A stretch of DNA of 64,000 bases from an uncultured Flavobacteriales bacterium (GTDB lineage Bacteria > Bacteroidota > Bacteroidia > Flavobacteriales_D > Parvicellaceae), in the NCBI GenBank assembly GCA_943788755.1, contig CALSRM010000003.1, forward strand, positions 1,612,001 to 1,676,000, written 5' to 3'. Shown here piece after piece: positions 30,667 to 56,284 of the stretch. The position numbers were made by a program, and so were the translations under genes. The notes under the pieces are model-generated. The model made no database searches. It was given only the letters and a program-made list of their open reading frames with translations, and was not told where the DNA came from. Positions within the stretch are counted from its first letter, which is position 1. Each line of letters begins with the position of its first letter.

Positions 30667-30668
30667 TG

Positions 30669-31634
30669 TTATTCGCAAGTACTTTTTACATGTTGAGTTG
30701 CAGCATTAAATCCTAAGTTAGATGCTTTAATCCAGTCTTCACATGTACTTTCTTTATTCATTAACTGCATATTGCACATACCTCTATTAAAATAAGCTAC
30801 ACCATATTTGGAATCTAATATGATTGCATCATTAAAATCTTTTAACGCTTCTGAATATGACTCCAATTTATACATTGCATATCCTCTATTATTGTATGCG
30901 AAGGCATAAGTGCAGTCAACTTTAATTGCATTGTCAAACTCAAGAATAGCCTTCACGTAATTCCCTAAGGAAAAAAAACAAGTTCCTTTATTGTTATATG
31001 GGATAGCGTATAGAGAATCCAAATCAATTGCTCTATCATAGTCAGCAATTGCATCCTCGTACTTTTTCAACTCTCTGTAACAGCTACCTCTATTATTATA
31101 GACATATGCCAAAGTAGGAGCAATTTCTAATGCTAAAGAATAATTTATTATCGCATTTTCAAAATCTCCTTTTTGTCTATATGCACTAGCCATGTCATTA
31201 TATGCATAAACATAGTCCGATTTAATTTCTAAACATTCTTTGTATGCATCAATTGATTCATCGTATTTTTGATTTAAGAAGTAAGCCCTTCCTAAATAGA
31301 AGTGAGTTTTATAATTGCCATGATTTAATTCCACTGCAATTCTTAAATCAGTGATTCCTTGCTCAATTTTTCCTTTGTCTACGTACAGGTTTCCTCTTCC
31401 TATCCTTGCAAGTTCAAATTGAGGGTGTGCGGAAATAGCTTTTGAAAAGTATGTCACAGCGCTATCCGGTTTTCCAGTCGATAAGAAATCTATAGCATCG
31501 TTATAATGGGTTTCAGCAGCTTGAATTTTCCCCAATTGTTCATCTAATAGAATAGCCGTAGAATCATTTTCCATTTGAGCTGCACCGGATATACAAACAA
31601 AGAATAATAAGGTATGTACAATCAGTTTCTTCAT
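30669..31634 (-). CDS. Secreted TPR-repeat protein of the adhesin operon
   Basis: The 321-residue product has a signal peptide (MKKLIVHTLLFFVCISGAAQ) and about eight tetratricopeptide repeats covering most of the mature protein, for example YAYNDMASAYRQKGDFENAI and YAFAYNNRGYAMYKLESYSE. TPRs form a superhelical scaffold for protein binding. It starts one base inside the porP stop codon (TGATG overlap at 31634) and ends 2 bases before the OmpA gene, so it is translationally coupled to both. Likely a periplasmic adaptor for the secretion or anchoring of the giant protein; this is inference from context. Confidence 0.85.
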   Translation of the reverse strand: MKKLIVHTLLFFVCISGAAQMENDSTAILLDEQLGKIQAAETHYNDAIDFLSTGKPDSAVTYFSKAISAHPQFELARIGRGNLYVDKGKIEQGITDLRIAVELNHGNYKTHFYLGRAYFLNQKYDESIDAYKECLEIKSDYVYAYNDMASAYRQKGDFENAIINYSLALEIAPTLAYVYNNRGSCYRELKKYEDAIADYDRAIDLDSLYAIPYNNKGTCFFSLGNYVKAILEFDNAIKVDCTYAFAYNNRGYAMYKLESYSEALKDFNDAIILDSKYGVAYFNRGMCNMQLMNKESTCEDWIKASNLGFNAATQHVKSTCE

Positions 31635-32611
31635 CAGTAAATACTAGGAAGTAATCCTTCCAAAGATTTTTTATAGGTTAAACTAAATTCGAATCCTCCT
31701 CTATAATTTGTTGCAGAAGAAAGTGTACTAATATTAAAATCGTAACTAATACCAAGCCTTATACTTCTATAAAGTCCTCCAAAATGAATAGCAGCAGCAT
31801 CAAAGTATCGATAGTAAGGTCCTGCAAATACATATAAGTCAGACGCAGAAAGGTATTTGTTCCAAAGAAATCCAATGTTTAATTCATTTACATTTTGTTG
31901 TCTCATAAATAAAACATGAGGCTCCAAGTAGTTTTTATTAGCCATTTCAAATCGGACTCTTGAATATAAAGTCCATCTTATAGGTAGTTTATTGTCTGTA
32001 TCTATAAATGTTTCTTTAGGACTTGTTAAATGATGAGCAGAAACTCCTACAGTTGGTTTTACTTTACTTTTTTTCGTGTTATTAAAATAACAAACTCCAA
32101 AATTTAATTCCGGAAGCATCATACTTATGTTTGCAAATGATTCATAGCTAGGTATTCCTGAATTATATCCACTTACAGAATTTTCGAATTGATTATTATA
32201 TACGAATTGGTTGGAACTGATACTTTTCTGAATAAAACCTAATTGGATCCCAGTAGTTAAATGATGACCATCAGTAGGAGTGTTGGTTATTTCATAAGCT
32301 GTCGATAATGTTAGGTTGGTAACGGTATAGTTGCTTAGACCAGCTTTATTATTCATAGCGAGTAAACCAAATCCAAATTTTTTGTAAGGTTTGTCATATG
32401 AAAATATGGAGGTAGTAAATGGATTTGAAGCGACAGCACTCCACTGATTTCTGTATTGAATATGAGCTTGATATTGTCCTTTAAACATTCCTGTTATTGC
32501 CGGGTTGGTTTGAAGTCTTGATTGATAGAATTGCGACAAATGAGCATCCTGAGCATGCATTGAAATGCAGGTCATTATTAATACATATATGCTAAATATT
32601 TTTCGAATCAT
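31634..32611 (-). CDS. PorP/SprF-family T9SS outer-membrane protein
   Basis: The 325-residue protein has a signal peptide (MIRKIFSIYVLIMTCISMHA) and the family's opening QDAHLSQFYQSRLQTNPAIT, followed by YRNQWSAVASNPFTT. Amphipathic strands of a beta-barrel run to the end (GISYDFNISTLSSATN, GGFEFSLTYK). SprF-like members are required for secretion of specific type B CTD adhesins; in Flavobacterium johnsoniae SprF serves SprB. Its gene follows the giant adhesin after only 7 bases, so it is probably that protein's dedicated partner. Confidence 0.92.
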   Translation of the reverse strand: MIRKIFSIYVLIMTCISMHAQDAHLSQFYQSRLQTNPAITGMFKGQYQAHIQYRNQWSAVASNPFTTSIFSYDKPYKKFGFGLLAMNNKAGLSNYTVTNLTLSTAYEITNTPTDGHHLTTGIQLGFIQKSISSNQFVYNNQFENSVSGYNSGIPSYESFANISMMLPELNFGVCYFNNTKKSKVKPTVGVSAHHLTSPKETFIDTDNKLPIRWTLYSRVRFEMANKNYLEPHVLFMRQQNVNELNIGFLWNKYLSASDLYVFAGPYYRYFDAAAIHFGGLYRSIRLGISYDFNISTLSSATNYRGGFEFSLTYKKSLEGLLPSIY

Positions 32612-32618
32612 TCTACTA

Positions 32619-35600
32619 TTATCTGACTAAAGTTATATCACCTTTCATAGTATACTCTTTTTCATTTAGAGTTACTGCTCTTACTGTATAAACATAAACA
32701 CCAATTGGTTGATCACTATTTAATTTCATTCCATTCCAACCATTACTCTGCTCGGTTGATTGAAAGATTAATTCTCCCCAGTTATTATATATTCTAAATT
32801 CGAATTCTAAGAATGGTCCTCCATCTACAAATAAAATATCGTTTACTCCATCTCCGTTTGGAGTAAAACCACTCGGAACAAAAGGCACTCCATCTAATAT
32901 TGGGCATTCTCCACTAACAAGATTCGTAACAGAATCTCCGCAGCCATTCATTGTGGTAACTGTCAAGCTTACGTAATAATCACCTTCAACTTCATAACTA
33001 TGAGAGGGCTCGATTAATGTGGAAGTATTTTCATCTTCAAAGTCCCAATAATAGCTAATTATGCTATCTCCAGTTACTGCGGTTGAATTTACGAAGGTTA
33101 ATAAATCTGTAACACAATCTCCTTCAAAAGTAAATTCTGCTGCAACAGTTTGTATCGAAACAGATTGTCTTATTGTATCTGAACAACCAGCAACTGTTGT
33201 TACAATTAATTGAACAGAGCTAGTGTCAAGTCCAAAAGCATAGGTTGGGTTTTGAACCAAAGAGCTATCTGTTCCAAAATTCCAATTCCAATCTGAAATT
33301 ATTCCATTTGAAATTGTGGATAAATCGATAAACGGAACTAGTGAGTCGTTACACAATAGATTAAAGCTGAAGTCAGCAACTGGTGATTCAAAGAATGATA
33401 AATCAATTGAATCAAAGTACATTGGACAATTAGGAGATTCTATAAATAATTGTACTCCTCCGTTACTTATGTCGTTGTCACTAGGTATATACGAAGCATT
33501 GAGGACCGAATCGTTTGGTGAAAACACCCCTGTTCCAGTTGTTTGCCATACTAAACTACTGTTACCTCCAAATACGTATACGTCCATGTTTACTGGTAAT
33601 TGTCCAAGACAAACGGTGTCTGGATTTAATATTGAAATGATAGGAGGTATTTCCCAATTTACCATTAATGTATCAGAAATTTCAGGACAACTTCCGTTAT
33701 TTGTAGTAGTTAATATTAAGTTTGCAAACCCTTGCGCTGTATCTGCCTGACTTGGTATATATATCGAATTTAAGACTGTGTCTGAAGGAAAGAAGCTTCC
33801 GGTTCCGAGTGAGCTCCAGCTTCCAGTGGAAGTCCCAGTAGAAACGTTTCCGTTTAATTGAACGTTTATTCCATTAACCGTACAAATTGTAATGTTGGCA
33901 CCGGCATCAGGATTAGGATAAGGATTAAATAATATATCTGTAGATACAGTTACGGCATTGCAAGTGCCATTTCCAGTACTTGTAAGCGCAACAGTAACGA
34001 TTCCAGCAGTGCTATCATTTGCATCACCAAAGTATTGTGTTGATAGACTGGTTTCATCACTAAACATCCCTGTTCCTATTGAGTTCCAGTTAGCCCCGGA
34101 TGCATTATTTACAGTGCCTTCTAAGTCAATCAGAATGTTTTCAATACATACTGGACTTACAACTGAAATTGTAAGTTCTGGAGCTGGAGTTACTTCAATG
34201 TCTATGGTGTCAGAAGCTTCTATACAGGCATTTACTGAAGATAGAACTAGTTGATAGGATCCGGCACCAGGTGGATTGATAAAGTTGGTGTTTACCAAAC
34301 TACTGTCCGTAAAATATCCTCCATTTAGAGAAGTCCACTCGGTTTGTCCAGATCCACCTATTATCGATCCGTTGAGTGGCAGCGGCACGTTAGAGCAAGT
34401 AGTGTCATTTAATCCTGCAATAATTAAGGGAATCGATGTGATTATTATTTCTAAGGTATCATTCTCCGGAAAGCAGTTGCCATTGTCAATAGATTCCAGA
34501 ACAAGTGTTACAGCATGTGCAATAGTATCCGCACTGCTTAATACATATGTTGCATTTAAGGCACTATCATTTGGTAGAAAATATCCAGTTCCTAAAGTAG
34601 TCCATACTCCAACTGTACTTCCAAGTGATACATTTCCTGCCAAAACAGCGGTTGTGTCACCTTCACATAGTATTTGATCTATACCTGCATCAACCAATGG
34701 GGCTGGAGTAATCACCACAAGCAGAGAGTCTTGTTCAAGACATGCATTAGTTGAAGATAAAGTTAATGTGGCAAACCCCGCTAAAGAATCTTGAGAGCTT
34801 GGCTTATAAGTTGCGTTTAAAGCGGTGTTGCTAGGAGTAAAAATACCTGTACCCGAAGTAGACCAGATACCAGTGGCTGTGCTTCCGGAAACATTTCCTG
34901 ATAAGAATACATCTGAGTTGTTTGAACAAACCGTATCATTAGGGCCAGCTATAACGACTGGTCTAGAAGTGAATTGAACAACAATTGAATCGCTAACATC
35001 AATGCAGAATGTTGAGTCAATAGTTTGAGCACTAATAATGATATTTGCAACGGTTGTATCCATTCCACTTGGAATATAAGTAGCGTTTAAATCACTGTTA
35101 TTAGGCAAGAAGCTTCCAGTACCTGATGAACTCCAAATAACACCGATAGAACCACCTCCAATAATAGCGTTTAATGGAATAACGTCATCATTACAAACAA
35201 CTAAGTCAGTGCCAACATCAACGGTAGGAGCAGGAGTTATCGTGATTAAAACCAAATATGTTTCTTCAGAACATATTCCATTGTTAGTAGTAGTAAGGGC
35301 TAGAACTACAAAACCTGCCATTTTATCTGCTGCACTTGGAATATAAACATTATTAAGAATAGTTTCATTTTCAGTGAAAAATCCAGATCCAAAGGTACTC
35401 CAAATACCAGTAGAAGTTGGTCCAAATATTTGACCTACAAGATAGGCTGTGTCGTTATTTGCACATATACTAATATCTGGACCACCATTGGCATAAGGAG
35501 CAGGAGTTATTGTGGTAATCATGGTGTCAATATCGGCAACGCACCCGCTAAAATTAGTAGGCGTAAAGGTTAATGTTACATTTCCTGCCAAAGAATCATC

Positions 35601-38600
35601 AGAGCTAATTACATAAGTAGCATTGAAATCAGTTGCATCCGGCACAAAATATCCTGTTCCAAGTGATTCCCACAGGCCTTCAGAGGCTCCAGTGATTGTT
35701 CCTCCTAACTGTATGGGCACGTTTGCGCAAACAGTTTGATTATTTCCAGCACTAACAGTTGGGTTATCAACAATATGTATATATATTGTATCTTCTTCAG
35801 GATTACAAGATCCGTTATTTGTTGAGGTAAGGGTAATTTCTACAAGTCCAGCAATAGTGTCTGCAGGGCTCGGTATATATGTTGCTGTTAAAGTCGTATT
35901 ATTAGGACTAAAAGAACCTGTTCCAGATGTTGTCCATGTCCCTGTTGTACTTCCTCCTGAAACACTTCCATTCAGAGCAACATTTGGGTTTGAAATACAT
36001 ACAAAAACATCAGGGCCAGCATCTACAACAGGGGATGGAGTGTAATTGATGTAAACTGTGTCTGCCTTATTACAACTATTTGTACTGTTTAATATCAATT
36101 GAACAAAGCCAGAATTTTGATCGGTTTGACTTGGTATATAATTTGTCGTTAAGAGTGTATCTGACGGTGAGAAGTTACCTGTTCCTAAAGTACTCCATTC
36201 TCCGCTAATCGCGCTTCCACTGACAGTTCCGAATAGATTTACTATTCCATTATTTCCGCATGCAGTTTCATCATTCCCTGCATTAACAAAAGGGGTAGGA
36301 ACTATTGTTATTAGGAGTGTGTCACTTACGGTATTGCATGTTCCATTATTTGTTGAAGTTAAAGCTATATTTACGAAGCCATTAGTAGTATCCGCAGGAC
36401 TAGGGACATAAGTTGGATTTAAAACTGTATTACTTGGTAAGAATGTTCCGGAACCACTACTAGTCCATTCTCCCGAAGCAGACCCACCTGAAACCGATCC
36501 AAGAAGAGAAATATTATCTGTTGTACAAATCAATTCATTAATTCCTGCTTCAACCAATGGAGGAGGGGTAATCGTAACCAACATTGCATCTGCATTAGGG
36601 TTACAATCACCATTGTTTGTAGATGTTAAAGTTAAAATTACACTCCCATTGTTTTTGTCTGGAACACTTGGCACATAATTTACAATCAAACTACTATTAT
36701 TCGGAATAAAGATTCCTGAGCCACTACTGGTCCATAAGCCAGTAGAGGATGCACCTGTTATTTCTCCAATTAAGGATATTGCAGGGTTATTATAACAAAC
36801 CACTTGGTTGCTTCCTGCTATAGAAACAGGAGGTTTAGAAACTAAATAGTTTACTGTGTCACTTTTATCAATGCAAGCATCAGTCGAAGTTAAAATTAAA
36901 TTTACCGATCCAGTAGCGGTTTCTGAAGTTCCAAACGAATATATAGGGTTCATACTAGAACTATCGGAGAACGTACCATTACCGAGGGTCGTCCAGACAC
37001 CAGTAGTTGTTCCTCCACTTATGCTTCCAATTAAGACTACTTGTGTGTTGGCACAAGCTGAATTATCAAATCCAGCATTAACCAGGGGAGCAGTAGTTAT
37101 GGTTATTGCAAGAGTGTCATCATTTGAGTTACAAACACCATTATTGGTTGATGTCAATATTATCGAAGTTCCATTAGCCGCAATATCATCAGGGCTAAGA
37201 ACGTATAACCCATTTAATGTCGAATCATTTGGGGAAAAATAACCTGAACCGAGTGTAGTCCATATTCCTGTAGTTGTTGCACCAGAAACAAATCCTACTA
37301 AACTAGCAGAAGTGTCTCCAACACAAACAGCAATGTTGTTACCTGCATTAACCGTAGGTGGTGAACTCAAATAAATTTTAAGAGAATCCAAATCAGAATT
37401 ACATTCACCATTGTTAGTTGTAGATAGTATTAAGCTAATACTATCTTGTAATATATCTGCTGCACTTGGTATATAGGAAGCATTAAGTGCGCTGGGATTT
37501 GGAGAGAAAATACCTGTGCCAGATGAGGTCCAAATACCTGTCGTGGTTATGCCACTGATAATTCCATTCAGGTTAATATTTACATTATTTGAACAAACAG
37601 TTGTATCATTTCCTGCATTTGATATTGGACCTGGGGTTACAACTAATTCTAAGGTGTCGCTAATAGAAGCGCAAGCAAGTGTAGAGTGCAGCACTATATT
37701 AACATTTCCTGCTGAAATATCCCCAGCTCCAAATTGATATTGAGCATTAAGATCTGAAGTGTCTGGTGTGAAATTGCCGTCACCTAAAGTTTCCCACCCA
37801 CCAGTAGTTGGTCCTCCTGATACATTTCCTGATAGAGAAACTAATGCATTTGAACAAGAAGTATCAGGAATTCCGGCATCAATAATTGGTACGCCGGTAA
37901 TGGTAATTGTTAATGTGTCAGTGTTTTCGCTACACGTTCCATTATTAATTGAAGTTAAAATTAAATCAAATCCTCCAGCTATGCTATCAGCTGTACTAAG
38001 ATTGTATGTTGCGTTTAATATGCTGTTATTCGGCGCAAATGTTCCTGAGCCTGAACTAGACCAGACACCTTCTGTTGTAATGCCTGAAACTGAACCATCT
38101 AAAACAGCATCCATATCTCCAAAACAAATAAATTGATCAACATTGGCATTAACTTGCGGAGCTGGAGTGAAATATGCAGTTGCAGTATCCGTGGAAGCAC
38201 ATGAGTTGGTTGAAGTTAGAGTTATCAGAACGCTACCCGCCGCAATATCTGCTATGCTTGGTATATAGGTAGCTGTTAATGATGAGTCATTTGGAGTAAA
38301 TGATCCAGTACCTGATGAAGTCCATATTCCAGTGGTGCTGCTTCCTGAAATGTTTCCGTAGATATTAATATCTGCATTATTTCCACAAACTGATCCGTCT
38401 AAGCTATCTATAGCAACCAATGGACGTGGTGTGAAATTAACAACAAGTGTGTCGTCCACTGCTAGGCAGCCTAAGTTATTTGTTGAGGTTAAAACTAACT
38501 GGACGGTACCTGCTAACGTATCCGCACTTCCCGGAACATAATAAGCGTTTAAATCTGTACTTATTGGATTAAACGATCCAGTTCCTAAAGATGACCAAAT

Positions 38601-41600
38601 AGCTGTATTAGATCCCGAATTTATCATCCCATTTAATTGCAGACTATCATCATTACAGATGGATGGAGCAATTCCAGTATTTATTAATGGAGGTTGAGTT
38701 ATGTTCAACCTAACTGTATCCGCAATAGGTAAGCAAATTCCATTATTCGTTGATACTAAAAAGAGGTCTACAAAACCGACAGCTATATCAGTTGGACTAG
38801 CAGTATAAGTAGCATTAAATGTTGTGTCATTAGGGAAGAATGATCCTGATCCCAATGAAAACCATCTTCCTGAGGTACTTCCCCCAGAAACAGTTCCTGA
38901 TAATATTATTGAGGGATTATTAGCACAAATATTTTCATCCAGGCCTGCGTCTACTGCTGGCATTGGAGTGTAGGTTATTAAGATCGAATCCTTCTCCAGT
39001 AAACAACCTCCATTATTTGTGGAAGAAAGGGTTAAATAGACAGAGCCAGAATTATGGTCAGCTGCAGACGAGTTGTATGATGCCGTTAGTAAACTATTGT
39101 TAGGGTTGAAATCTCCTGACCCACTTGTAGACCAACTTCCTGTTGAGGTAGCTCCCGTAATTATCCCATTCAAGTTTATTGTATCGTTATTTTCACAAAC
39201 TGTCAAATCAATTCCTGGATCAACTATTACACCATTTGAAAATGACAATTCAACAGTATCAACAATAGCTTGACACATTCCGTTAAGTGTTGAGGTTAGA
39301 TATAAGTTTACTGATCCAGCGGTGGTATCTGTATCTCCTGCAGTATAAATAGCATTCAAATCTGTAGTAGGGATTGAAAACGCTCCATCTCCATCTGTAG
39401 TCCATATACCTGAGGAAGAACCTCCACTGATAGTACCGGAGAGGTTAAAAACTGGATTCGTCGCACAAGCCGATAAATCTAAACCTGCATTTGAAACAGG
39501 TGGAGCTGTCATAATAATAAAAATTGTGTCAGTAACAGCGATACATCCTCCATTTCCAGTAGAACTTAATACTACCATTACCGAATCAAATATTGTGTCG
39601 GATGCAGTAGGTAGATAAGATGCTGTTAATAAGGAATTATTTGGAGAGAAGGATCCGCCACCATTGGTAGACCATTGGCCGCCGGTTGCTCCGATAATAG
39701 TTCCAGTTAAATCAATACCTGCTGTATCGGCACAAACAGTTTGACTACTTCCAGCATCAACATAAATCCCTGGGTTTATTGTTACAATAATAGAATCAAT
39801 TGCAGCTGCGCATCCTCCATTATTGGTAGATGTTAATGTTAATGTTACCTGGCCAGCAGTTGAATCGGCAATTGTTGGAATATAAGATGCAGTCATCAAA
39901 CTATTATTAGGGGAGAAGCTTCCCGTTCCGCTTGTAGACCATATTCCTGAAATAGGAACTGTTCCATTTAGGTTTACATTAGCTGCATGGAAACAAACAA
40001 TATCATCTAATCCTGCATCTACATTTAAGGAGTCTAAAATTGAAATGTTAAAGCTGGCGGTGTTAGGGCATATGCCAGTAGTGGTGTATGTAATGGCATA
40101 AGGACCTCCAACTGTTGATGCTGATAAATTTATTTCACCTGTTCCAGCATTTATGCTAACACCTCCTGGTGCAGAAAAAGTACCTCCAGATAAACCAGTC
40201 AACGAAGGAATAGGGTTTGACTCACTTTGACAATAAGTAGAAACATCAAATATAAACGAAGGATCATCTTCGGAGTCAATTGTAATGTCAAATGTAGTTG
40301 CACTAGAACATGAACCTGCTGTCGTGTATGTTATTGTGTATGGACCTCCCAATGTACTTGAGATGAGGTTTATTTCACCAGTACTTCCATTTAAAACAAC
40401 ACCTGCTGGAGCAGTAAATGTTCCTCCCGCAGCTCCCGTAACAATTGGAACCGGGTTTATATCTCCCTGACAATAAGTGTTAGATGAATATGCAAATGAA
40501 GGGTCGTCATCTGTAACAATTGTAATATTGAATGTAGTATTATTAGGACATAACCCTGAAGTAGAATAGGTCACAATATAAGGACCTCCAACTGTGGATG
40601 TTGCAACGTTAATTTCTCCTGATCCAGCATCAATTGAAAGACCAGCTGTAGCGGTAAATATTCCTCCTGCAGCACCACTAACCGTAGGCGTTGGATTTAA
40701 ATCTGTTAAGCAATAACTAGCAGCGCCATAAGTAAATGCTGGATCATCTTCGGGATTAATTGTAAGATCAAAAGTTGCACCAATTGGGCAGGATCCAGAA
40801 GTGGTGTATGCAATGGTATATGGTCCACCTACAGCAGAAGTAGAAAGATCAATGACCCCAGTAGAAGCATTTATGGATACAGCAGCCGGAGCAGAGAAGG
40901 ATCCACTAGCTGTACCAGTAATGGTAGGAGACGGATCGGCATCCCCTTGACAGAATGCAGCAGCTGCATAAGTAAATGAAGGATCATCAAGAATGATGGT
41001 TACGTTAAAAGTTGTTGCGTTAGGACAAGTTCCACCAGTAGTATAGGTAACGACATATGGTCCACCTGCAGTAGAAGCAGAAGCATCAATTACACCAGTA
41101 CCTGCATTAATGATAAGTCCAGCGGTGGCAGTAAATATACCACCTGATATTCCAGTAATAACAGGGGTCGGATCAGCTCCTCCTTGACAATACGAAGGAG
41201 CTACATATGTAAATGAAGGATCATCTTCTGGATCAATCGTAACTTCAAAAGTAGCACTATTTGCGCACCCTCCAGGAGCAGTATAGGTAATTGTGTAAGG
41301 TCCACCAGCTGTGGAAGCTGAAAGGTCAATAACTCCAGTACTCAAGTTAATTGAGATGGCGGCAGGAGCTGAGAAAGCCCCTCCTGGATCGCCAGTTATA
41401 ATCGGAGCTGGGTCAGCTGCACCCTGGCAATAATTAGTAGATGCATAAGTAAATGAAGGGTCATCTAATACTATTGAAACGTTATACGTTGTACTGTTCG
41501 GACAAGTACCTCCTGTTGTATAAGTTACAGTATAAGTAGCTCCTGAAGTTGAAGCAGAAAGATCAATTACGCCAGTCCCTGCATTAATGATAAGTCCAGC

Positions 41601-44600
41601 AGTAGAAGTAAATGTACCACCAGCAGTTCCCATAATAGTAGGAGTAGGGTTAGCATCATCTTTGCAATACGTAGCAGCGGGATACGTAAATGAAGGATTG
41701 TCTTCCGGTAGGACATCGATATTAAATGTGGTAGAGCTATTACAAGACCCTGGAGTAGTGTATGTAACGATATAGGGTCCACCTATACTAGAAGCTGCGA
41801 GGTCAATTTCACCAGTAGAGAGGTTAATAACTAAGCCAGTAGTAGCGGAGTAAGTTCCTCCAGGTCCCCCTGTAACTGTAGGTAATGGATTAGCATCACT
41901 TTGACAATAATTATTAGCGGTATAAGTAAAAGAAGGATCCCCAGTAGTTACAATTGCTATGTTGAATGTGGTGCTATTAGGACATATTCCCCCAGTTGCA
42001 TAGGTAACAGTATATGCTCCGATAGCAGATGTAGCTAAATCTACTTCTCCAGTTCCAGCATTGATTACAAGACCGGCTGTTGAGGTAAAAGTACCCCCTG
42101 CATTACCAGTAATGGTAGGAGTAGGATTAGGATCACTTATACAATAGCTAGCAGCTGTGTATGAAAATGCAGGATCATCTTCCGGATCAATAGTTACATC
42201 AAAAGTTGTGCTGTTGGAGCATGTTCCAGGAGTGGTGTAGGTAATGGTATAAGCCCCACCCACAGTAGAAGCGGACAGATCAATTTCACCAGTAGAAGCG
42301 TTAATAGATACCGCAGCAGGTGCAGTAAATGTACCCCCAGCGGTACCAGTAATGGTTGGAAGTGGATCAGCATCCCCTTGACAGAAAGAAGCCGCGGCAT
42401 AAGTAAAAGCAGGATCTTCTTCTGCTTCAATGGTTACATCGAATGTTGTGCTATTAGGACAAATCCCTCCAGTGGTATAGGTTACAGTGTAAGTAGCTCC
42501 TGTAGTAGAAGCCGATACATCGATTACTCCAGTACCGGCAATAATGGAAAGTCCCGCAGTAGAAGTAAATGTACCCCCTATGGTACCAGTAATAGTAGGG
42601 GTAGGGTCAGCATCCCCTTGACAGTATGAAGCTGCAGGGTAAGTAAAGGCAGGATCATCTTCAGCATCGATTGAGATATCAAAAGTAGCCCCAATCGGAC
42701 AAGCTCCTGAAGTAGTGTAAGTAATGGTATAAGGTCCACCCACAGTCGAAGCAGATAAATCAATTACCCCAGTAGAAGCGTTTATGGAAACAGCAGCAGG
42801 AGCGGAGAACGAACCACCTGGGGTACCTGTAATAGTAGGCGAAGGATCAGCATCTCCTTGACAGAAAGCAGCAGCAGCATAAGTAAAAGACGGATCATCT
42901 AAAATGATTGTGACATTAAAAGTGGTAGCATTAGGACAGGTACCAGCTGTAGTATAAGTTACAACATAAGGTCCACCTGCAGTGGAAGCCGACACATCGA
43001 TTTCCCCCGTAGCAGCATTAATGGAAAGGGCAGCAGGCGCGGTAAATGTACCACCGACTGTACCCGTAATAGTAGGGGTAGGATCAGCGCCCCCTTGACA
43101 GTAGGAAGCTGAAGCATAACTGAATGAAGGATCATCTTCTGCAACCACATCCACTGTGAAAGTGGTAGCATTAGAGCAAGTCCCTGGAGTGGTGTATGTA
43201 ATAACATAACCAGCTCCCACCGTAGAAGCAGAAAGATCAATCACTCCAGTGGATGCATTAATAGAAACTGCAGCCGGAGCGGTAAATGTCCCCCCAATAG
43301 TTCCGGTAACCGTAGGAGAAGGATCAGCATCTCCTTGACAGAAAGAAGCGGCAGCATAGGTAAAAGCAGGGTTCTCTTCTAGCTCAATGGTTACATCGAA
43401 TGTTGTGCTGTTCGGACAAGTTCCGACAGTAGTATAAGTTATTGTATAAGTAGCTCCACCAGTAGAAGCCGAAAGATCGATTACTCCGGTACCGCCAACA
43501 ATGGAAAGACCAGCAGTGGAAGTAAATGTACCACCGGCAGTTCCAGTAATAGTAGGCGTAGGATCGGCATCATCCTGACAGTAAGAAGCCGCAGGATAAG
43601 TAAACGAAGGATCATCTTCTGGATCAACAGACACATCGAAAGTTGTACTACTATTACAAGATCCAGGAGTTGTATAGGTCACTGTATAAGGTCCACCTAC
43701 TGTTGAAGCTGACAAATCGATTTCTCCTGTTGAAAGGTTGATAGAAAGTCCCGCAGTGGCGGTATAAGTTCCTCCTGGAGTTCCTGTTACGGTTGGTAGT
43801 GGATCAACATCACCTTGACAGAAAGAGGCTGCGGCATAAGTAAATGAAGGATCCCCAATAGTAACAATAGATACATCAAAAGTGGTACTGTTTGGACATA
43901 TACCTACGGTGGTATATGTCACCGTATATGGTCCGCCAACGGTAGAAGAAGCAATGTCGATTTCACCGGTAAGGGCATTAATAGATAAACCAGCAGGAGC
44001 TGAAGTAAAAACACCGCCAACTGTTCCAGTAATGGTTGGAGTAGGGTCGGGGTCGCTGAAACAATAGCTTGCAGCGGAATACGTAAAGGCAGGATCATCT
44101 TCTGGATCAATGGTTACATCAAAAGTTGTACTGTTGGAGCACCCTCCAGGAGTTGTATAAGTAATAGTATAAGCCCCACCCACAGTAGAAGCGGACAGGT
44201 CAATTTCACCAGTAGAAGCGTTAATAGACACCGCAGCAGGTGCAGTAAATGTACCACCCGCTGTTCCGGTAATGGTTGGAAGTGGATCAGCATCCCCTTG
44301 ACAGAAAGCAGCCGCTGCATAGGTAAATGCAGGATCATCTTCAATATTAATTGTCACATCAAAAGTTGTACTGTTCGGACAAGTACCTCCCGTAGTATAA
44401 GTCACGGTATAAGTAGCCCCAGCAGTAGAAGCAGAAAGATCAATCACTCCGGTACCTCCAACAATGGAAAGCCCTGCATTAGAAGTAAATGTACCACCCG
44501 CTGTTCCTGTAATGGTAGGCGTAGGATCTGCATCATCCTGACAATAAGCTGCTGCAGGATAAGTAAATGCAGGATCATCTTCCGGATCAATAGTTACATC

Positions 44601-47600
44601 AAAAGTTGTGCTGTTGGAGCATGTTCCAGGAGTGGTGTAGGTAATGGTATAAGCCCCACCCACAGTAGAAGCGGACAGATCAATTTCACCAGTAGAAGCG
44701 TTAATAGATACCGCAGCAGGTGCAGTAAATGTACCCCCAGCGGTACCAGTAATGGTTGGAAGTGGATCAGCATCCCCTTGACAGAAAGAAGCCGCGGCAT
44801 AAGTAAAAGCAGGATCTTCTTCTGCTTCAATGGTTACATCGAATGTTGTGCTATTAGGACAAATCCCTCCAGTGGTATAGGTTACAGTGTAAGTAGCTCC
44901 TGTAGTAGAAGCCGATACATCGATTACTCCAGTACCGGCAATAATGGAAAGTCCCGCAGTAGAAGTAAATGTACCCCCTATGGTACCAGTAATAGTAGGG
45001 GTAGGGTCAGCATCCCCTTGACAGTATGAAGCTGCAGGGTAAGTAAAGGCAGGATCATCTTCAGCATCGATTGAGATATCAAAAGTAGCCCCAATCGGAC
45101 AAGCTCCTGAAGTAGTGTAAGTAATGGTATAAGGTCCACCCACAGTCGAAGCAGATAAATCAATTACCCCAGTAGAAGCGTTTATGGAAACAGCAGCAGG
45201 AGCGGAGAACGAACCACCTGGGGTACCTGTAATAGTAGGCGAAGGATCAGCATCTCCTTGACAGAAAGCAGCAGCAGCATAAGTAAAAGACGGATCATCT
45301 AAAATGATTGTGACATTAAAAGTGGTAGCATTAGGACAGGTACCAGCTGTAGTATAAGTTACAACATAAGGTCCACCTGCAGTGGAAGCCGACACATCGA
45401 TTTCCCCCGTAGCAGCATTAATGGAAAGGGCAGCAGGCGCGGTAAATGTACCACCGACTGTACCCGTAATAGTAGGGGTAGGATCAGCGCCCCCTTGACA
45501 GTAGGAAGCTGAAGCATAACTGAACGAAGGATCATCTTCTGCAATAATAGTAATGTTGAAAGTTACCCCTATTGGACAAGCTCCAGATGTAGTATAAGTT
45601 ATAGAATAGGGGCCTCCAGCCGTTGAAGCTGATAAATCGATTACACCGGTGGAAACATTAATAGACACAGCAGCTGGGGCAGAAAAGGTTCCTCCTGCAG
45701 TTCCAGTTATTGTGGGAGAAGGATCTGCATCTCCTTGACAAAATGAAGCAGCAGCATAGGTAAATGATGGATCATCAAGTATTATTGTAATGTTAAAAGT
45801 TGTGCTGTTTGGACAAGTTCCACCAGTGGTATAAGTAACTACATAAGGGCCTCCAGCTGTAGAAGCTGATACATCAATCTCTCCAGTTCCTGCATTTATG
45901 GAAAGACCAGCAGTAGAAGTAAAGGTTCCACCTCCAAGTCCTGTAATGGTTGGGGTAGGGTCAGCTCCTCCCTGGCAATAAGATGCAAAAACGTATGTAA
46001 ACGAAGGGTCATCAATTGGATTAATTGTAATATCAAAAGTTTCTACTACACCGATACAACCACCAGATGCTGGAATTGTGTTAGATATTGTATAAGTTCC
46101 TGGTGTTGATGCTGTTAAATCTACTTCACCAGTATTTATGTTTACAAAACTAAGCCCACCAGGTATAGCTGAAAAAGTTCCTGGACTACCAGTAGTGTAA
46201 ACAGGGGATGGGTTGATACCTTGTTCGCAATAAGGTGATCCAACGTAAGAGAATTCAGCATCAAATCCTGACGTTAATGTTACATCAACCGTTAGGCTAT
46301 CTGGGCAAGGTCCGTTTGTTACATAGTCGATACTATAAGGTCCACCTAAAGTACTAGCGGATACATCGATTTCTCCAGTTGCTGTACTTATGAAGATAAT
46401 GTTTCCGGAAGCTTCGCTAAAAGTTCCACCACCTAAACCAGTAATAGTTGGAGTTGGATCTGATCCTGTTTGACAAAAAGTGGCGGCTGTATATGTAAAC
46501 GCAGGATCGTCATTAGCAACAATTGTTACATCAAACGTATCAAAGTTTGAGCATGTTCCTGGAGTTGTGTAAGTAATAACGTAAGGTCCTCCAGCAGTGC
46601 ATGCAGATAAATCCAGTACTCCTGTTAAAGCATCTAATACGATACCTGCTGGAGCAGTAAATGTTCCTCCGCCTGTTCCAGTTATTGTTGGAGTTGGATC
46701 TGCAATTCCAGTACAATAGCTTGCCGCTGCATAGGTAAATGCAGGATCATCTTCAATATTAATTGTCACATCAAAAGTTGTACTGTTCGGACAAGTACCT
46801 CCCGTAGTATAAGTCACGGTATAAGTAGCCCCAGCAGTAGAAGCAGAAAGATCGATTACTCCGGTACCTCCAACAATGGAAAGCCCTGCAGTAGAAGTAA
46901 ATGTACCACCCGCTGTTCCTGTAATGGTAGGCGTAGGATCTGCATCATCCTGACAATAAGCTGCTGCAGGATAAGTAAATGCAGGATCATCTTCCGGATC
47001 AATAGTTACATCAAAAGTTGTGCTGTTGGAGCATGTTCCAGGAGTGGTGTAGGTAATGGTATAAGCCCCACCCACAGTAGAAGCGGACAGATCAATTTCA
47101 CCAGTAGAAGCGTTAATAGATACCGCAGCAGGTGCAGTAAATGTACCCCCAGCGGTACCAGTAATGGTTGGAAGTGGATCAGCATCCCCTTGACAGAAAG
47201 AAGCCGCGGCATAAGTAAAAGCAGGATCTTCTTCTGCTTCAATGGTTACATCGAATGTTGTGCTATTAGGACAAATCCCTCCAGTGGTATAGGTTACAGT
47301 GTAAGTAGCTCCTGTAGTAGAAGCCGATACATCGATTACTCCAGTACCGGCAATAATGGAAAGTCCCGCAGTAGAAGTAAATGTACCCCCTATGGTACCA
47401 GTAATAGTAGGGGTAGGGTCAGCATCCCCTTGACAGTATGAAGCTGCAGGGTAAGTAAAGGCAGGATCATCTTCAGCATCGATTGAGATATCAAAAGTAG
47501 CCCCAATCGGACAAGCTCCTGAAGTAGTGTAAGTAATGGTATAAGGTCCACCCACAGTCGAAGCAGATAAATCAATTACCCCAGTAGAAGCGTTTATGGA

Positions 47601-50600
47601 AACAGCAGCAGGAGCGGAGAACGAACCACCTGGGGTACCTGTAATAGTAGGCGAAGGATCAGCATCTCCTTGACAGAAAGCAGCAGCAGCATAAGTAAAA
47701 GACGGATCATCTAAAATGATTGTGACATTAAAAGTGGTAGCATTAGGACAGGTACCAGCTGTAGTATAAGTTACAACATAAGGTCCACCTGCAGTGGAAG
47801 CCGACACATCGATTTCCCCCGTAGCAGCATTAATGGAAAGGGCAGCAGGCGCGGTAAATGTACCACCGACTGTACCCGTAATAGTAGGGGTAGGATCAGC
47901 GCCCCCTTGACAGTAGGAAGCTGAAGCATAACTGAATGAAGGATCATCTTCTGCAACCACATCCACTGTGAAAGTGGTAGCATTAGAGCAAGTCCCTGGA
48001 GTGGTGTATGTAATAACATAACCAGCTCCCACCGTAGAAGCAGAAAGATCAATCACTCCAGTGGATGCATTAATAGAAACTGCAGCCGGAGCGGTAAATG
48101 TCCCCCCAATAGTTCCGGTAACCGTAGGAGAAGGATCAGCATCTCCTTGACAGAAAGAAGCGGCAGCATAGGTAAAAGCAGGGTTCTCTTCTAGCTCAAT
48201 GGTTACATCGAATGTTGTGCTGTTCGGACAAGTTCCGACAGTAGTATAAGTTATTGTATAAGTAGCTCCACCAGTAGAAGCCGAAAGATCGATTACTCCG
48301 GTACCGCCAACAATGGAAAGACCAGCAGTGGAAGTAAATGTACCACCGGCAGTTCCAGTAATAGTAGGCGTAGGATCGGCATCATCCTGACAGTAAGAAG
48401 CCGCAGGATAAGTAAACGAAGGATCATCTTCTGGATCAACAGATACATCGAAAGTTGTACTGTTAGAGCACCCTCCAGGAGTTGTATAAGTTATAGTATA
48501 AGCCCCACCCACAGTAGAAGCGGACAGGTCAATTTCACCAGTAGAAGCGTTAATAGACACCGCAGCAGGTGCAGTAAATGTACCACCCGCTGTTCCGGTA
48601 ATGGTTGGAAGTGGATCAGCATCCCCTTGACAGAAAGAAGCCGCTGCATAGGTAAATGCAGGATCATCTTCAATATTAATTGTCACATCAAAAGTTGTAC
48701 TGTTAGGACAAGTACCTCCCGTAGTATAAGTCACGGTATAAGTAGCCCCAGCAGTAGAAGCAGAAAGATCAATCACTCCGGTACCTCCAACAATGGAAAG
48801 ACCAGCAGTGGAAGTAAATGTACCACCGGCAGTTCCAGTAATAGTAGGCGTAGGATCGGCATCATCCTGACAGTAAGAAGCCGCAGGATAAGTAAACGAA
48901 GGATCATCTTCTGGATCAACAGATACATCGAAAGTTGTACTGTTAGAGCACCCTCCAGGAGTAGTATAAGTTATAGTATAAGCCCCACCCACAGTAGAAG
49001 CGGACAGGTCAATTTCACCAGTAGAAGCGTTAATAGACACCGCAGCAGGTGCAGTAAATGTACCACCCGCTGTTCCGGTAATGGTTGGAAGTGGATCAGC
49101 ATCCCCTTGACAGAAAGCAGCCGCTGCATAGGTAAATGCAGGATCATCTTCAATATTAATTGTCACATCAAAAGTTGTACTGTTCGGACAAGTACCTCCC
49201 GTAGTATAAGTCACGGTATAAGTAGCCCCAGCAGTAGAAGCAGAAAGATCAATCACTCCGGTACCTCCAACAATGGAAAGCCCTGCATTAGAAGTAAATG
49301 TACCACCCGCTGTTCCTGTAATGGTAGGCGTAGGATCTGCATCATCCTGACAATAAGCTGCTGCAGGATAAGTAAATGCAGGATCATCTTCCGGATCAAT
49401 AGTTACATCAAAAGTTGTGCTGTTGGAGCATGTTCCAGGAGTGGTGTAGGTAATGGTATAAGCCCCACCCACAGTAGAAGCGGACAGATCAATTTCACCA
49501 GTAGAAGCGTTAATAGATACCGCAGCAGGTGCAGTAAATGTACCCCCAGCGGTACCAGTAATGGTTGGAAGTGGATCAGCATCCCCTTGACAGAAAGAAG
49601 CCGCGGCATAAGTAAAAGCAGGATCTTCTTCTGCTTCAATGGTTACATCGAATGTTGTGCTATTAGGACAAATCCCTCCAGTGGTATAGGTTACAGTGTA
49701 AGTAGCTCCTGTAGTAGAAGCCGATACATCGATTACTCCAGTACCGGCAATAATGGAAAGTCCCGCAGTAGAAGTAAATGTACCCCCTATGGTACCAGTA
49801 ATAGTAGGGGTAGGGTCAGCATCCCCTTGACAGTATGAAGCTGCAGGGTAAGTAAAGGCAGGATCATCTTCAGCATCGATTGAGATATCAAAAGTAGCCC
49901 CAATCGGACAAGCTCCTGAAGTAGTGTAAGTAATGGTATAAGGTCCACCCACAGTCGAAGCAGATAAATCAATTACCCCAGTAGAAGCGTTTATGGAAAC
50001 AGCAGCAGGAGCGGAGAACGAACCACCTGGGGTACCTGTAATAGTAGGCGAAGGATCAGCATCTCCTTGACAGAAAGCAGCAGCAGCATAAGTAAAAGAC
50101 GGATCATCTAAAATGATTGTGACATTAAAAGTGGTAGCATTAGGACAGGTACCAGCTGTAGTATAAGTTACAACATAAGGTCCACCTGCAGTGGAAGCCG
50201 ACACATCGATTTCCCCCGTAGCAGCATTAATGGAAAGGGCAGCAGGCGCGGTAAATGTACCACCGACTGTACCCGTAATAGTAGGGGTAGGATCAGCGCC
50301 CCCTTGACAGTAGGATGCAGCAGGGTATGTAAAAGCGGGATTATCTTCTGCTTCAATATCAATTGTAAAAGTTGTGTTGTTTGTACAAGTCCCTGGAGTT
50401 GTATAAGTAATGACATAACCAACGGCCACAGTAGAAGCCGATAGATCAATCATGCCAGTCGAGGCATTAATAGAAATACCAACAGGAGCAGTGAAAGTTC
50501 CACCGATAGTACCTGTAATAGTAGGAGACGGATCAGCATCACCTTGACAGAAAGAAGCGGTAGTATAAGTAAAAGCTGGATCTTCTTCGGGAGCAATGGT

Positions 50601-53600
50601 GACATCAAACGTTGTACTGTTCGGACAAGAACCTCCTGTTGTATAAGTTATAGTATAAGTAGCTCCTGAAGTTGAAGCAGAAAGATCAATTTCTCCAGTC
50701 CCTGCGATAATAGAAAGCCCAGCAGTAGAAGTAAATGTACCACCGGCAGTTCCCGTAACAGTTGGAGTTGGATCTACATCATCTTGACAGTAGGATGCAG
50801 CAGGGTATGTAAAAGCGGGATTATCTTCTGCTTCAATATCAATTGTAAAAGTTGTGTTGTTTGTACAAGTCCCTGGAGTTGTATAAGTAATGACATAACC
50901 AACGGCCACAGTAGAAGCCGATAGATCAATCACGCCAGTCGAGGCATTAATAGAAATACCAACAGGAGCAGTGAAAGTTCCACCGATAGTACCTGTAATA
51001 GTAGGAGACGGATCAGCATCACCTTGACAGAAAGAAGCGGTAGTATAAGTAAAAGCTGGATCTTCTTCGGGAGCAATGGTGACATCAAACGTTGTACTGT
51101 TCGGACAAGAACCTCCTGTTGTATAAGTTATAGTATAAGTAGCTCCTGAAGTTGAAGCAGAAAGATCAATTTCTCCAGTCCCTGCGATAATAGAAAGCCC
51201 AGCAGTAGAAGTAAATGTACCACCGGCAGTTCCCGTAACAGTTGGAGTTGGATCTACATCATCTTGACAGTAGGATGCAGCAGGGTATGTAAAAGCGGGA
51301 TTATCTTCTGCTTCAATATCAATTGTAAAAGTTGTGTTGTTTGTACAAGTCCCTGGAGTTGTATAAGTAATGACATAACCAACGGCCAAAGTAGAAGCCG
51401 ATAGATCAATCACGCCAGTCGAGGCATTAATAGAAATACCAACAGGAGCAGTGAAAGTTCCACCGATAGTACCTGTAATAGTAGGAGACGGATCAGCATC
51501 ACCTTGACAGAAAGAAGCGGCAGTATAAGTAAAAGCTGGATCTTCTTCGGGAGCAATGGTGACATCAAACGTTGTACTGTTCGGACAAGAACCTCCTGTT
51601 GTATAAGTTATAGTATAAGTAGCTCCTGAAGTTGAAGCAGAAAGATCAATTTCTCCAGTACCGGCATTGATAATTAAACCAGCAGTCGAAGTAAATGTTC
51701 CTCCCACAGTTCCCGTAACAGTAGGAGTTGGATCTACATCATCTTGACAGTAGGATGCAGCAGGGTATGTAAAAGCGGGATCATCTTCTGGGTCAATTGT
51801 AAGATCGAAAGTTGCTCCAATTGGACAAGACCCTGAAGTAGTATAAGTAATCGTATATGGACCACCCGCTGTAGAAGCAGATAGGTCAATAACCCCGGTA
51901 GAAGCATTAATAGAAAGACCAGCTGGCCCCGCAAATGAACCCCCAGCCGTCCCCGTAATAGTAGGAGAAGGATCAGCATCCCCTTGGCAAAATACAGCCC
52001 CGGAATAAGAAAATGAAGGATCATCCAATATAATAGTAATATTAAAAGTTGCGCTGTTAGGGCATGCACTAGCGGTTGTGTAAGTAACGGTATATGCCCC
52101 TCCAGAAGTGCTTGCAGAAACATCAATTTCTCCAGTAGCAGCATTAATAGAAACTCCAGCTGGCGCAGAAAATGTACCTCCAACTGTCCCTGAAATAGTA
52201 GGAGTAGGATCAGCACCACCTTGACAATAAGAAGCAGATGTATAAGAGAAAGAAGGGTCATCTTCAGCGACAATATCTAAAGTGAAGGTTGTGTTATTAG
52301 CACAAACACCTGGCGTAATATATGTAATAATGTATCCAACTGCCACAGTAGAAGCAGAAAGATCAATTTCACCAGTAGAAGCATTGATAGAAAGCCCAGC
52401 CGGTGCAGAGAAGGTTCCTCCAGTAGTCCCCGTAATAGTAGGGGTAGGATCAGGGTCCCCTTGACAGAAACTTGCAGCGGTATATGAAAAAGCAGGATCC
52501 TCTTCAGCCAAAATTGTAATTGCAACGTTACTACCAATTGGACAAGAAATACTTGTACTATAATTTATAAGGTACGGCCCTCCAACTGTTGATGCATCCA
52601 GATCAATCAGACCAGTTACAGCATTAATTGATACTGCGACAGGAGCGGAAAAAGTCCCTCCTCCGGTACCTGTAACGGTAGCAATTGGGTCTGCATCTCC
52701 TTCGCAATATGAGGCTGCAGGGTATGTAAATGTTGGATCATCTAAAATAATAACAATATCAAAAGTTGTGAAATTAGGGCAGGTTCCTCCGGTTGTATAG
52801 GTAATTGAAAATGGACCGCCCGCTGCGGAAGCAGATACATCAATTACCCCTGTTCCCGAATTAATTGAGATTCCAGCGGGAGCCGTAAAAGTTCCTCCAG
52901 CTGTTCCCGTTATGGTTGGAGTGGCATCTGCTCCAGCTTGACAGTAACTTGCAAATGGATATGTAAATGACGGGTCGTCTTCAGCAGCAATAGCAACGTT
53001 AAAAGTTGCTGAATTAGAACATACGCCACCAGTTGTATATGTAATAATGTAGATTCCACCAGAAGTTGAAGCGGACACATCAATCGCACCAGTTCCAGCA
53101 TTAATAATTAATCCAGCTGGAGCAGTAAATATACCGCCTGCGGTTCCTGTAATTGTTGGAGTAGGGTCTGACTCTCCTTGACAATAACTAGCAGCACTAT
53201 ATCCAAAAGTGGGATCATCTTCAGCTATTATGGATAGGTTAAAAGTCGTATTACTTGAACAAGTTCCAGGAGTAGTGTAAGTTATGGTATAAGGCCCTCC
53301 AATTACGCTTGTGGATAAATCTATTGCACCAGTAGTGGTATTGATAGAAACTCCAGCAGGACCTGAAAAAAGTCCGCCAGGAGTTCCTGTGATAGTAGGA
53401 GCAGGATCAGTACCTGCTTGGCAAAATATAGTTGATGAATAAGTAAAATTAGGATCTTCCATTTGATTGATAGTCAAAGTCATATCATTGCTTGCAACAG
53501 GGCATCCGCCATTTCCAGTGGAGGTTAATGTTAAAGTTACACTGCCGGCAGTTATTTCACCGGCAGTAGGCGTGTACGTAGGGTCGATAGTATTTTCATC

Positions 53601-54671: not shown

Positions 54672-54902
54672 TAATTTACTTGCTAGTGTTAATTGTAATG
54701 TTATTTGTTCTCTTGCCCCCATGTACAAAAACTAACTTTGCGAAAAAACAAAGTATTTTACCTGTATATGAGGTCACAATATAGTAATTAACTTAGGAAT
54801 GTTAGTAAGTTTCGTTATGTTTTATGCATTACTTGTAGAAATTTTAGAATAAACTTCATTTTCATAAGAAATTAATCAAGGTTAAGTGGTTTTATGTGGC
54901 AT

Positions 54903-54949: not shown

Positions 54950-56284
54950 TTATTTTTTATACTTCTTTTTAATCTTTTTGACTTTTTCCTCAATCTTGGA
55001 TTGACTTCCGTCTAGTTTGGAATGCTTAGCATCTATTTTAGCTTGTTCTTCTTTTGCTTTTTCAGCATCCATCTTTCCTTTCTTAATTTTTTTATCCAGC
55101 TTTTTCTGCTCAGCATCTATCTTACTTCTTTTATCATCGATACTAGATTGACTCGACTTTAATTTTTCAAGTTCAGCTTGGTATTTTGCTTCTACTGCTT
55201 TTGCTTTTTCAGCTTCTTTCACTTTCTTTTCTGCTTCTTTAGCTTGCTTTTCCGCCTCTTTAACTTCTTTTTCTACTTCTTTTTGCTCTTGTTCTGCTTC
55301 TTTTTTAGCTTTTTCTTGCTCTTTTGCTTTTTCTTTTGCTTCCTTTTCTTCCTTTTCTGCGTCTTTCTGTTCCTTTTTTGCTTCTTCTTCTTTTTCTTTC
55401 GCTTCTTCTTCTATTTTTCCTGTTTCTTTTTTAGCTTCTTTTTCCGCCTGATTAACATCTTTCTTGGCATTTTTTTCAGCTTTTTTAGCTGCTTCTTCAG
55501 CTTTTAATCTCGCTTGTTCTTCTTCTAGACTTGTTAGATTAGCTTCTCTTTCTTTAGCTAATCGAGCTCTTTCTTCAGCTCCTTTTGCTCTATCATCAGA
55601 TGTGTTTGAAATCTCTTTCTCCGCATCGGTACTTATCTTAGAAGCTTCTTCACGTATTTTATCTGCATTTGCTCTTTTTTCGGTGGTTTTCTTTCTAGCT
55701 TCTTCTGCTTTCTTTCTTATCTCTTCAGTTTTGTTATTTGCAGAAACAACAGCATCTTCTGTTTTCTTTGCTTGTTCATTATACCTTTCTGTTCCCTCAT
55801 GCGCTTTTTCAGTATCTGAGACATGTTGTTCTGCCTTTTTCCCAATTTTATTTACTTTGTCTTCAGATTTAGAATAAATCGATTCAACCTTACTTTCAAT
55901 AATAGTAGTTGCAGAACCTGTTCCTTTCATTAGGCTAACATTGATAGTTTTGCCACTGCTTAATGCAGTGCCATCAATTGTGTTACTTTGATATCCGCCT
56001 AAAGATGTTGTAATAGATACTATGCTGCCATTATAATCAGTTATGTTTATAGTTGCTGTGCCTTTTTCATTGGTAGTAGCTGATCCAATACTTTTGCCGT
56101 CTTGCATAACATTTACAGAAGCTCCTGAAAGAGGGTTCCCAGAATAGGTAACATTTACAGAAAATTTTACGCTGGAAACGTTTGTAGTTTTGTCAATGTT
56201 TTTGTCTATTGAATTGTTGATTGCAGCGGCATTCAAATTTATTGTAGCTGCTATAATTCCAAAAAGGATTAAATTCTTTTTCAT
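54950..56284 (-). CDS. Secreted protein with Ig-like domain and long charged coiled coil
   Basis: The 444-residue product has a signal peptide (MKKNLILFGIIAATINLNAA). A ~90-residue carboxypeptidase-regulatory/Ig-like domain follows (VTYSGNPLSGASVNVMQDGK, GTATINITDYNG). Residues ~130-444 are an almost uninterrupted Glu/Lys/Ala-rich coiled coil (for example EEARLKAEEAAKKAEKNAKK). No enzyme motif, sorting domain or membrane anchor is seen. It may be a periplasmic spacer or scaffold. The low-complexity half makes homology searches unreliable. It has its own two-box promoter and terminator, so it is monocistronic. Confidence 0.7.
   Translation of the reverse strand: MKKNLILFGIIAATINLNAAAINNSIDKNIDKTTNVSSVKFSVNVTYSGNPLSGASVNVMQDGKSIGSATTNEKGTATINITDYNGSIVSITTSLGGYQSNTIDGTALSSGKTINVSLMKGTGSATTIIESKVESIYSKSEDKVNKIGKKAEQHVSDTEKAHEGTERYNEQAKKTEDAVVSANNKTEEIRKKAEEARKKTTEKRANADKIREEASKISTDAEKEISNTSDDRAKGAEERARLAKEREANLTSLEEEQARLKAEEAAKKAEKNAKKDVNQAEKEAKKETGKIEEEAKEKEEEAKKEQKDAEKEEKEAKEKAKEQEKAKKEAEQEQKEVEKEVKEAEKQAKEAEKKVKEAEKAKAVEAKYQAELEKLKSSQSSIDDKRSKIDAEQKKLDKKIKKGKMDAEKAKEEQAKIDAKHSKLDGSQSKIEEKVKKIKKKYKK

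Follow-up and report, generated by a model that had tools for sequence, protein, structure and literature searches.

Recently homogenised cores and a two-module register in the repeat array of a giant T9SS adhesin from an uncultured Flavobacteriales bacterium

The adhesin gene and its genomic setting

The window (the whole 64,000-nt stretch of DNA that was analysed) contained a giant adhesin gene, located in a cassette together with genes for a PorP/SprF family protein, a TPR protein, and an OmpA/PD40 protein (Table 1). The open frame of the adhesin extended from 32619 to 54728 on the minus strand, with the probable start at 54671, and was uninterrupted across 7,369 codons (22 kb), array included. 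From the N-terminus, the order was a signal-peptide-like start, an unrepeated region, 56 modules, a second array, a PKD domain, and a T9SS type B tail. The unrepeated N-terminal region had relatives at 35–48% in other genomes and in a paralogue of the same genome (C3:1294640). The C-terminus matched CHU_C (PF13585) with 58.2 bits (cut-off 27; E = 9e-16) and TIGR04131 with 42.9 bits (cut-off 35). SprB repeats (PF13573) were represented by a single match of 19.4 bits at the N-terminal end, below the cut-off of 28. Matches of the repeats to Pfam DUF642, Fe-S_biosyn and similar families were disregarded, being weak and scattered with no single stretch passing. Exact repeats of at least 25 nt were sought in the C-terminal array and none were found.

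Table 1. Features of the adhesin locus (positions in the window)
Feature	Position	Strand	Description
Cassette	28489..54898	.	26.4 kb; lacking at this site in three other species of the genus
OmpA/PD40 protein	28489..30678	-	Cassette member
TPR protein	30669..31634	-	Cassette member
PorP/SprF family protein	31634..32611	-	Presumed to carry/anchor the adhesin in the outer membrane; no cysteine in the C-tail
Giant adhesin gene	32619..54671	-	~7,350 aa from ATG at 54671; C-terminal T9SS type B sorting domain
C-terminal array	33141..40025	-	At least 25 older modules, ~89 aa each
N-terminal array	40026..53453	-	56 modules, 79–84 aa each, two-module register
Core block 4 (modules 44–47)	42165..43106	-	Identical 942 bases
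Core block 3 (modules 34–37)	44565..45506	-	Identical 942 bases
Modules 29–33	45531..46745	-	Drifted, inside ten-module "block 2"; without a close counterpart elsewhere in the array
Core block 2 (modules 24–27)	46977..47918	-	Identical 942 bases
Module 20 chimera	48663..48902	-	First 102–116 nt as module 22, remainder as module 18; one breakpoint
Core block 1 (modules 14–17)	49374..50315	-	Identical 942 bases
Module 14 chimera	50103..50339	-	First 24–37 nt as modules 10/12, remainder as core module 24; one breakpoint
Modules 8–13	50340..51779	-	Two-module unit three times in tandem, 93–100% per module; 455-base exact repeat at lag 480

The structure predicted for modules 16–18 (mean pLDDT 93.7, pTM 0.76) consisted of three beta domains in a row. 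The best PDB neighbours of this model were cadherin ectodomains, with TM-scores that were low across the entire three-domain chain, and a sequence search of solved structures gave no match. The ~80-residue modules, which have invariant cysteines and one fold in common, are predicted to be cadherin-like domains.

The gene adjoining the adhesin scored 164.6 bits against TIGR03519 (cut-off 90.55). Its product had no relative above 39% identity among the PorP/SprF proteins of 25 related genomes, and its C-tail (...FEFSLTYKKSLEGLLPSIY) lacked a Cys-X-Cys motif. Genome-wide, GldJ was present, and 19 loci scored above the cut-off of the PorP/SprF family. The adhesin is most likely a T9SS-exported surface protein held by its PorP/SprF partner.

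In three congeners (L092, L093, and L094), the genes corresponding to 27721–28488 and 54950–56284 were adjacent, with flanks that were contiguous and 79–89% identical. The cassette was thus found in one of four congeneric species, a distribution that either gain or loss may have produced. The hexamer ATAAAA occurred at both cassette edges and could be a target duplication or a chance occurrence in AT-rich DNA. No tRNA genes were found within the window. A foreign origin by composition was considered and rejected: third codon positions matched those of the host, and the raised GC content was located at codon positions 1 and 2 because of the amino-acid content.

DNA identity, module register, and chimeric modules

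Comparison of the four core blocks confirmed as exact the 942-base identity that a preliminary description of this DNA had reported from the letters alone. That description had also noted two blocks identical over about 1,466 bases, for which 1,467 bases were measured (46977–48443 vs. 42165–43631). Its observation that nearby modules had drifted was correct for the old modules between the cores, but it missed further exact identities of 1,343 bases containing blocks 1 and 3 (44164–45506 and 48973–50315), 1,045 bases (44480 vs. 46892), 1,027 bases (46892 vs. 49289), and 455 bases with an offset of 480 bases (50454 vs. 50934). The cores were spaced by 2400, 2412, and 2397 bases, corresponding to ten modules of 79–84 codons.

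As a control, synonymous codons were shuffled 20 times with the protein unchanged. The longest exact repeat after shuffling was 26–51 bases vs. 1,467 bases observed, indicating identity at the DNA level rather than protein constraint. Between the cores, none of the 159 fourfold sites in modules 15–17 differed, and the four-module cores of blocks 1 and 4 differed at 2 of 210 such sites, both in module 14; in most drifted module pairs, 40–75% of fourfold sites differed. The recent exchange previously deduced from synonymous-site identity was thereby upheld, as was its frame-preserving character, since the array lies open throughout the adhesin frame. With no differences among four copies, the upper 95% bound under a star tree was approximately 3/(4 × 942) = 0.0008 changes per site. 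Divergence of the cassette flanks from the nearest congener was 11–14%, roughly 0.06 per lineage. If rates were alike, homogenisation of the cores would be estimated to fall in the most recent one or two percent of the period that has passed since the congener split.

Alignment of the modules and codon-by-codon comparison, with core pairs left out of the non-core lag means, gave a mean identity of 69.1% at a lag of ten modules. This was the same as at other even lags (71.3, 70.6, 71.1, and 68.8% at lags 4, 6, 8, and 12, respectively; odd lags 65–66%), indicating that there is no true ten-module repeat outside the cores. Module pairs with at least 90% identity occurred 49 times among 756 pairs at even lags and not once among 784 pairs at odd lags, where DNA identity reached a maximum of 74%. 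When the order of the modules was permuted 2000 times, the even-odd difference was never matched. Among the drifted modules alone it was small (62.7 vs. 61.0%), indicating that strong alternation is largely a feature of the section of the array with recent rearrangements. The sole ten-module recurrence was that of the four-module core; modules 29–33, for example, were 51–72% identical to their partners at lag 10. Recent copies were found at lags of 2 (modules 8–13 and 19/21), 10, and 20 modules, interspersed with drifted modules, and since copies never crossed module types, every step was an even number of modules. The array is therefore not the ten-module higher-order repeat that had been proposed, as no recurrence at ten is seen in the modules separating the cores, nor did exchange proceed in steps of ten modules, given the copies at lags 2 (480 bases) and 20. 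The real register is two modules, and the core merely happens to recur at ten. An ancient periodicity of eight or ten modules was also considered and discarded, the similarity at lag 8 being weak and patchy (e.g., modules 44–45 vs. 52–53, 76–81%).

Two modules were chimeric, each with a single breakpoint. Module 14 had 11 informative sites of the type of modules 10/12, followed only by sites of module 24, placing the breakpoint between nt 24 and 38. Module 20 had 15 informative sites as in module 22 followed by 25 as in module 18, so that its breakpoint lies between nt 102 and 117. At both breakpoints, 13–14 nt were common to the two parents. Both chimeras directly record unequal exchange in register, and module 20 is the product of a two-module duplication: the order of modules 18–23, e-f-(g/e)-f-g-h, is the pattern expected when unequal exchange is offset by two modules. 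Module 19 was examined as a chimera of modules 39 and 41 and rejected, its informative sites being mixed. Paralogues were likewise dismissed as donors of the cores, the nearest modules elsewhere in the genome having at most 60% protein identity. Homogenised modules had a fourfold-site GC of 0.258 and drifted modules one of 0.176, but as the copies do not count as independent and the values of host genes ranged from 0.15 to 0.31, no claim of GC-biased gene conversion is made.

The array module was present in 33 of 40 surveyed genomes of relatives. Exact in-frame duplications were found in two adhesins with the same module, one of 2,519 bases at lag 1692 (L095) and one of 1,652 bases at lag 1653 (L063, a Vicingaceae MAG). 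The duplicated units in both were composite, consisting of a propeller-like stretch plus two modules. An assignment of these as "seven-module" repeats was abandoned after inspection of the translations, and their module counts are not comparable with those of the array described here.

Spread of the core and alternative explanations

Starting from the exact repeats, the restriction of close copies to even lags, the junctions in the two chimeras, and the drifted modules between copies, we consider it fairly probable that modules of two alternating types, recombining in even numbers and in frame, spread the core within the stalk of this giant T9SS adhesin. The tandem amplification of modules 8–13, the open frame, the three-domain model, the T9SS type B tail with its PorP/SprF neighbour, and the long in-frame duplications in other adhesins with this module also speak for this explanation. 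Homologous recombination, either as unequal crossing-over between sister copies or as replication slippage, would pair modules of the same type, and DNA would be gained, lost or overwritten in even module numbers, always in frame. A few events at lags of 2, 10, and 20 modules would have carried one four-module core to four places, leaving cores too young for any mutation and older intervening modules that stayed put. The exchange would presumably be performed by RecA-type recombination. The analysis covered one genome of this species; such events would be expected to alter adhesin length among living cells, with reach or binding as the presumed selected trait, and the variation in length between strains that the preliminary description anticipated is plausible.

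Some observations fit this explanation less well. Three times the core returns after exactly ten modules, even though the intervening modules differ, and because they differ, simple duplication fails to explain the recurrence without later replacement. Modules 20–21 and 40–41 were old and unlike, though the modules before and behind them were identical, and modules 28–33 and 48–53 were likewise old and unlike, though preceded by identical modules; duplication alone is therefore insufficient, and conversion or later replacement is also needed. The patchy identity at modules 20–21 vs. 40–41 and in module 28, which holds three isolated sites of module-22 type, could equally have arisen by gene conversion. 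It is accordingly possible, if on the improbable side, that the core was pasted non-reciprocally and in register onto older modules by gene conversion at a fixed array length. The interruption of identical tracts by old drifted modules with the register kept, the isolated module-22-type sites, and the constant number of modules between cores would all agree with this, but the two-module duplication traced by module 20, lying between its parents 18 and 22, and the tandem amplification of modules 8–13 both change array length, and with conversion alone the three equal spacings would be a coincidence. The common fold and invariant cysteines might also suggest that purifying selection on the protein kept the modules alike in the absence of recent exchange, an explanation with practically no probability left, already refuted by the lack of fourfold differences in modules 15–17 against the 40–75% seen in most drifted pairs and by the synonymous shuffles, whose repeats never exceeded 51 bases.

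An assembly artefact, with copies multiplied or misjoined, appears unlikely. The assembly comprised five contigs and does break at other repeats: four contig ends (the C1 end, the C4 end, and both C3 ends) lay at arrays of a 201-base unit repeated at 98–99%, one contig began at an rRNA operon, and several draft genomes of relatives had matches near contig ends. However, at 1,467 bases, the longest exact repeat in the adhesin falls short of the near-identical stretches that stopped this assembly, of 3.2 kb (both C3 ends, inverted) and 6.8 kb (C1 and C4 ends). Each core moreover is bordered by flanks of its own, the reading frame stays open for 22 kb, and the chimeric joins have just 13–14 nt in common, while assembler overlaps or k-mers are usually longer than this. 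It is very improbable that the cassette was acquired by horizontal transfer with its blocks preformed and that nothing happens to them in this lineage. The lack of the cassette at this site in three congeners and the isolated position of its SprF, at most 39% identical to any relative in the 25 genomes searched, would be in line with such an origin; the third-position composition, by contrast, fits host genes, and the full identity of the cores indicates very recent copying, wherever it happened. Recombination of same-type modules in even numbers thus remained our preferred explanation.

Comparison with known systems

The recombination seen in this giant adhesin is real, recent, and resolved in detail, and it is ordinary in kind. 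Higher-order repeats of the alpha-satellite type consist of multi-monomer units copied as a block. The present array resembles them in having a unit several monomers long that was copied as a block, but only four of ten monomers recur per step, so it is not a regular higher-order repeat. Adhesins with DNA-identical repeats are already known, as is length change by repeat recombination in bacteria; here, exchange is limited to even numbers of domains and leaves unlike neighbours. Identical neighbouring domains are prone to misfolding, and it is conceivable, although doubtful, that the alternating two-type layout evolved to reconcile recombination with correct folding. The two types would then be too unlike to recombine, as suggested by the absence of any odd-lag pair above 74% DNA identity, and exchange of even blocks would never set identical domains side by side. 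If this were true and general in giant adhesins of Bacteroidota, they would form a distinct "interleaved" class of length-variable adhesins. The locus offers a well-resolved snapshot of such an adhesin being rebuilt, with breakpoints placed within 13–14 nt and an even-module rule, and a test case for why very large repeat proteins avoid identical neighbours yet retain the DNA identity needed for recombination.

Ilm of Yersinia ruckeri and other adhesins contain DNA-identical Ig-like repeats whose number is strain-dependent and underestimated by short reads (PMC6868369). The present adhesin likewise has a long tandem series with DNA-identical domains, but those of Ilm are described as uniform tandem copies, whereas in the present array old modules and identical blocks form a mosaic. 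The locus also resembles SprB/SprF of Flavobacterium johnsoniae (PMC12635249) in that the gene for a giant, repeat-rich substrate of the T9SS (type B) is directly followed by a PorP/SprF gene and in having GldJ in the genome. In F. johnsoniae, the Cys-X-Cys motif of SprF is invariant in close SprF homologs and needed to keep the adhesin on the gliding track (PMC12635249). The protein described here differs in its sub-threshold PF13573 match and in its carrier; because the carrier tail is without Cys-X-Cys, we do not call it a gliding adhesin, and it may be static rather than gliding.

The closest comparison is with the Periscope Proteins (SasG, Rib, Sgo_0707, and CdrA), for which intragenic recombination between highly alike repeats is the proposed mechanism of stalk-length change (PMC8201768; PMC9704523); the text of these two papers does not mention Bacteroidota. 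As in these proteins, a monomeric surface adhesin has a stalk whose folded domains are very highly identical in DNA and an N-terminal domain distant from the C-terminal anchor. Judged by the Periscope definition of tandem repeats (more than 50 residues with at least 80% identity), identity reached 100% at lags of 2, 10, and 20 modules and at most 74% (amino acids) between neighbours, and the predicted three-module model showed separate domains in a row. Differences from the Periscope Proteins are the unlikeness of adjacent modules (mean amino-acid identity 64%), the persistence of drifted modules between identical ones that lie 2, 10 or 20 places apart, and the T9SS anchoring. By analogy, the adhesin most likely functions in the manner of the Periscope Proteins, in that recombination within the stalk could alter the length or reorder the modules, which would extend the idea of length-variable adhesins to those of the T9SS.

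Cassette site and features of the window

The 26.4-kb adhesin-SprF-TPR-OmpA cassette was missing entirely from the corresponding site of three congeners (L092, L093, and L094), in which its flanking genes were still adjacent to each other. The motif ATAAAA was present at both edges of the cassette. Two long antisense open frames within the repeats are most likely by-products of module composition. A repetitive stretch with units of 11, 21, and 42 bases was located inside the neighbouring gene for a 444-aa protein.

Features in the window and the source genome (G000)
Feature	Location	Strand
Cassette	window 28489-54898	
Antisense open frame, 403 aa	window 48627-49838	+
Antisense open frame, 243 aa	window 44298-45029	+
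Repetitive stretch	window 55190-55442	
Paralogous adhesin-SprF pair	C3:1286853-1295791	
Interrupted paralogue (L029)	C3:666686-670291	
PorP/SprF gene adjoining L029	C3:664944-665900	
201-base array (L028)	C3 end	
201-base array (L031)	C1 end	
201-base array (L032)	C4 end	
201-base array (L033)	C3 end	

Paralogues and repeat families in the source genome

A paralogous adhesin-SprF pair had an N-terminal region in common with the giant adhesin (48%) and no match to the 80-residue module, which suggests that adhesin tip and stalk may be swapped independently of each other. The same module was carried by another paralogous gene, which is broken by an in-frame TAA and adjoins its own PorP/SprF gene.

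A 201-base coding repeat forms tandem arrays (98–99%) at four contig ends and represents a second adhesin-like repeat family, spread over several loci in near-identical copies. Both ends of C3 carried an inverted repeat (3.2 kb, 99.6%), and the C1 and C4 ends had 6.8 kb in common at 99.2%.

Adhesins of relatives

Adhesins with the same module in L095 and L063, the latter a Vicingaceae MAG, contained 551–564-residue units combining propeller-like stretches with two 80-residue modules, and the copies of these composite units were identical over 1.6–2.5 kb.
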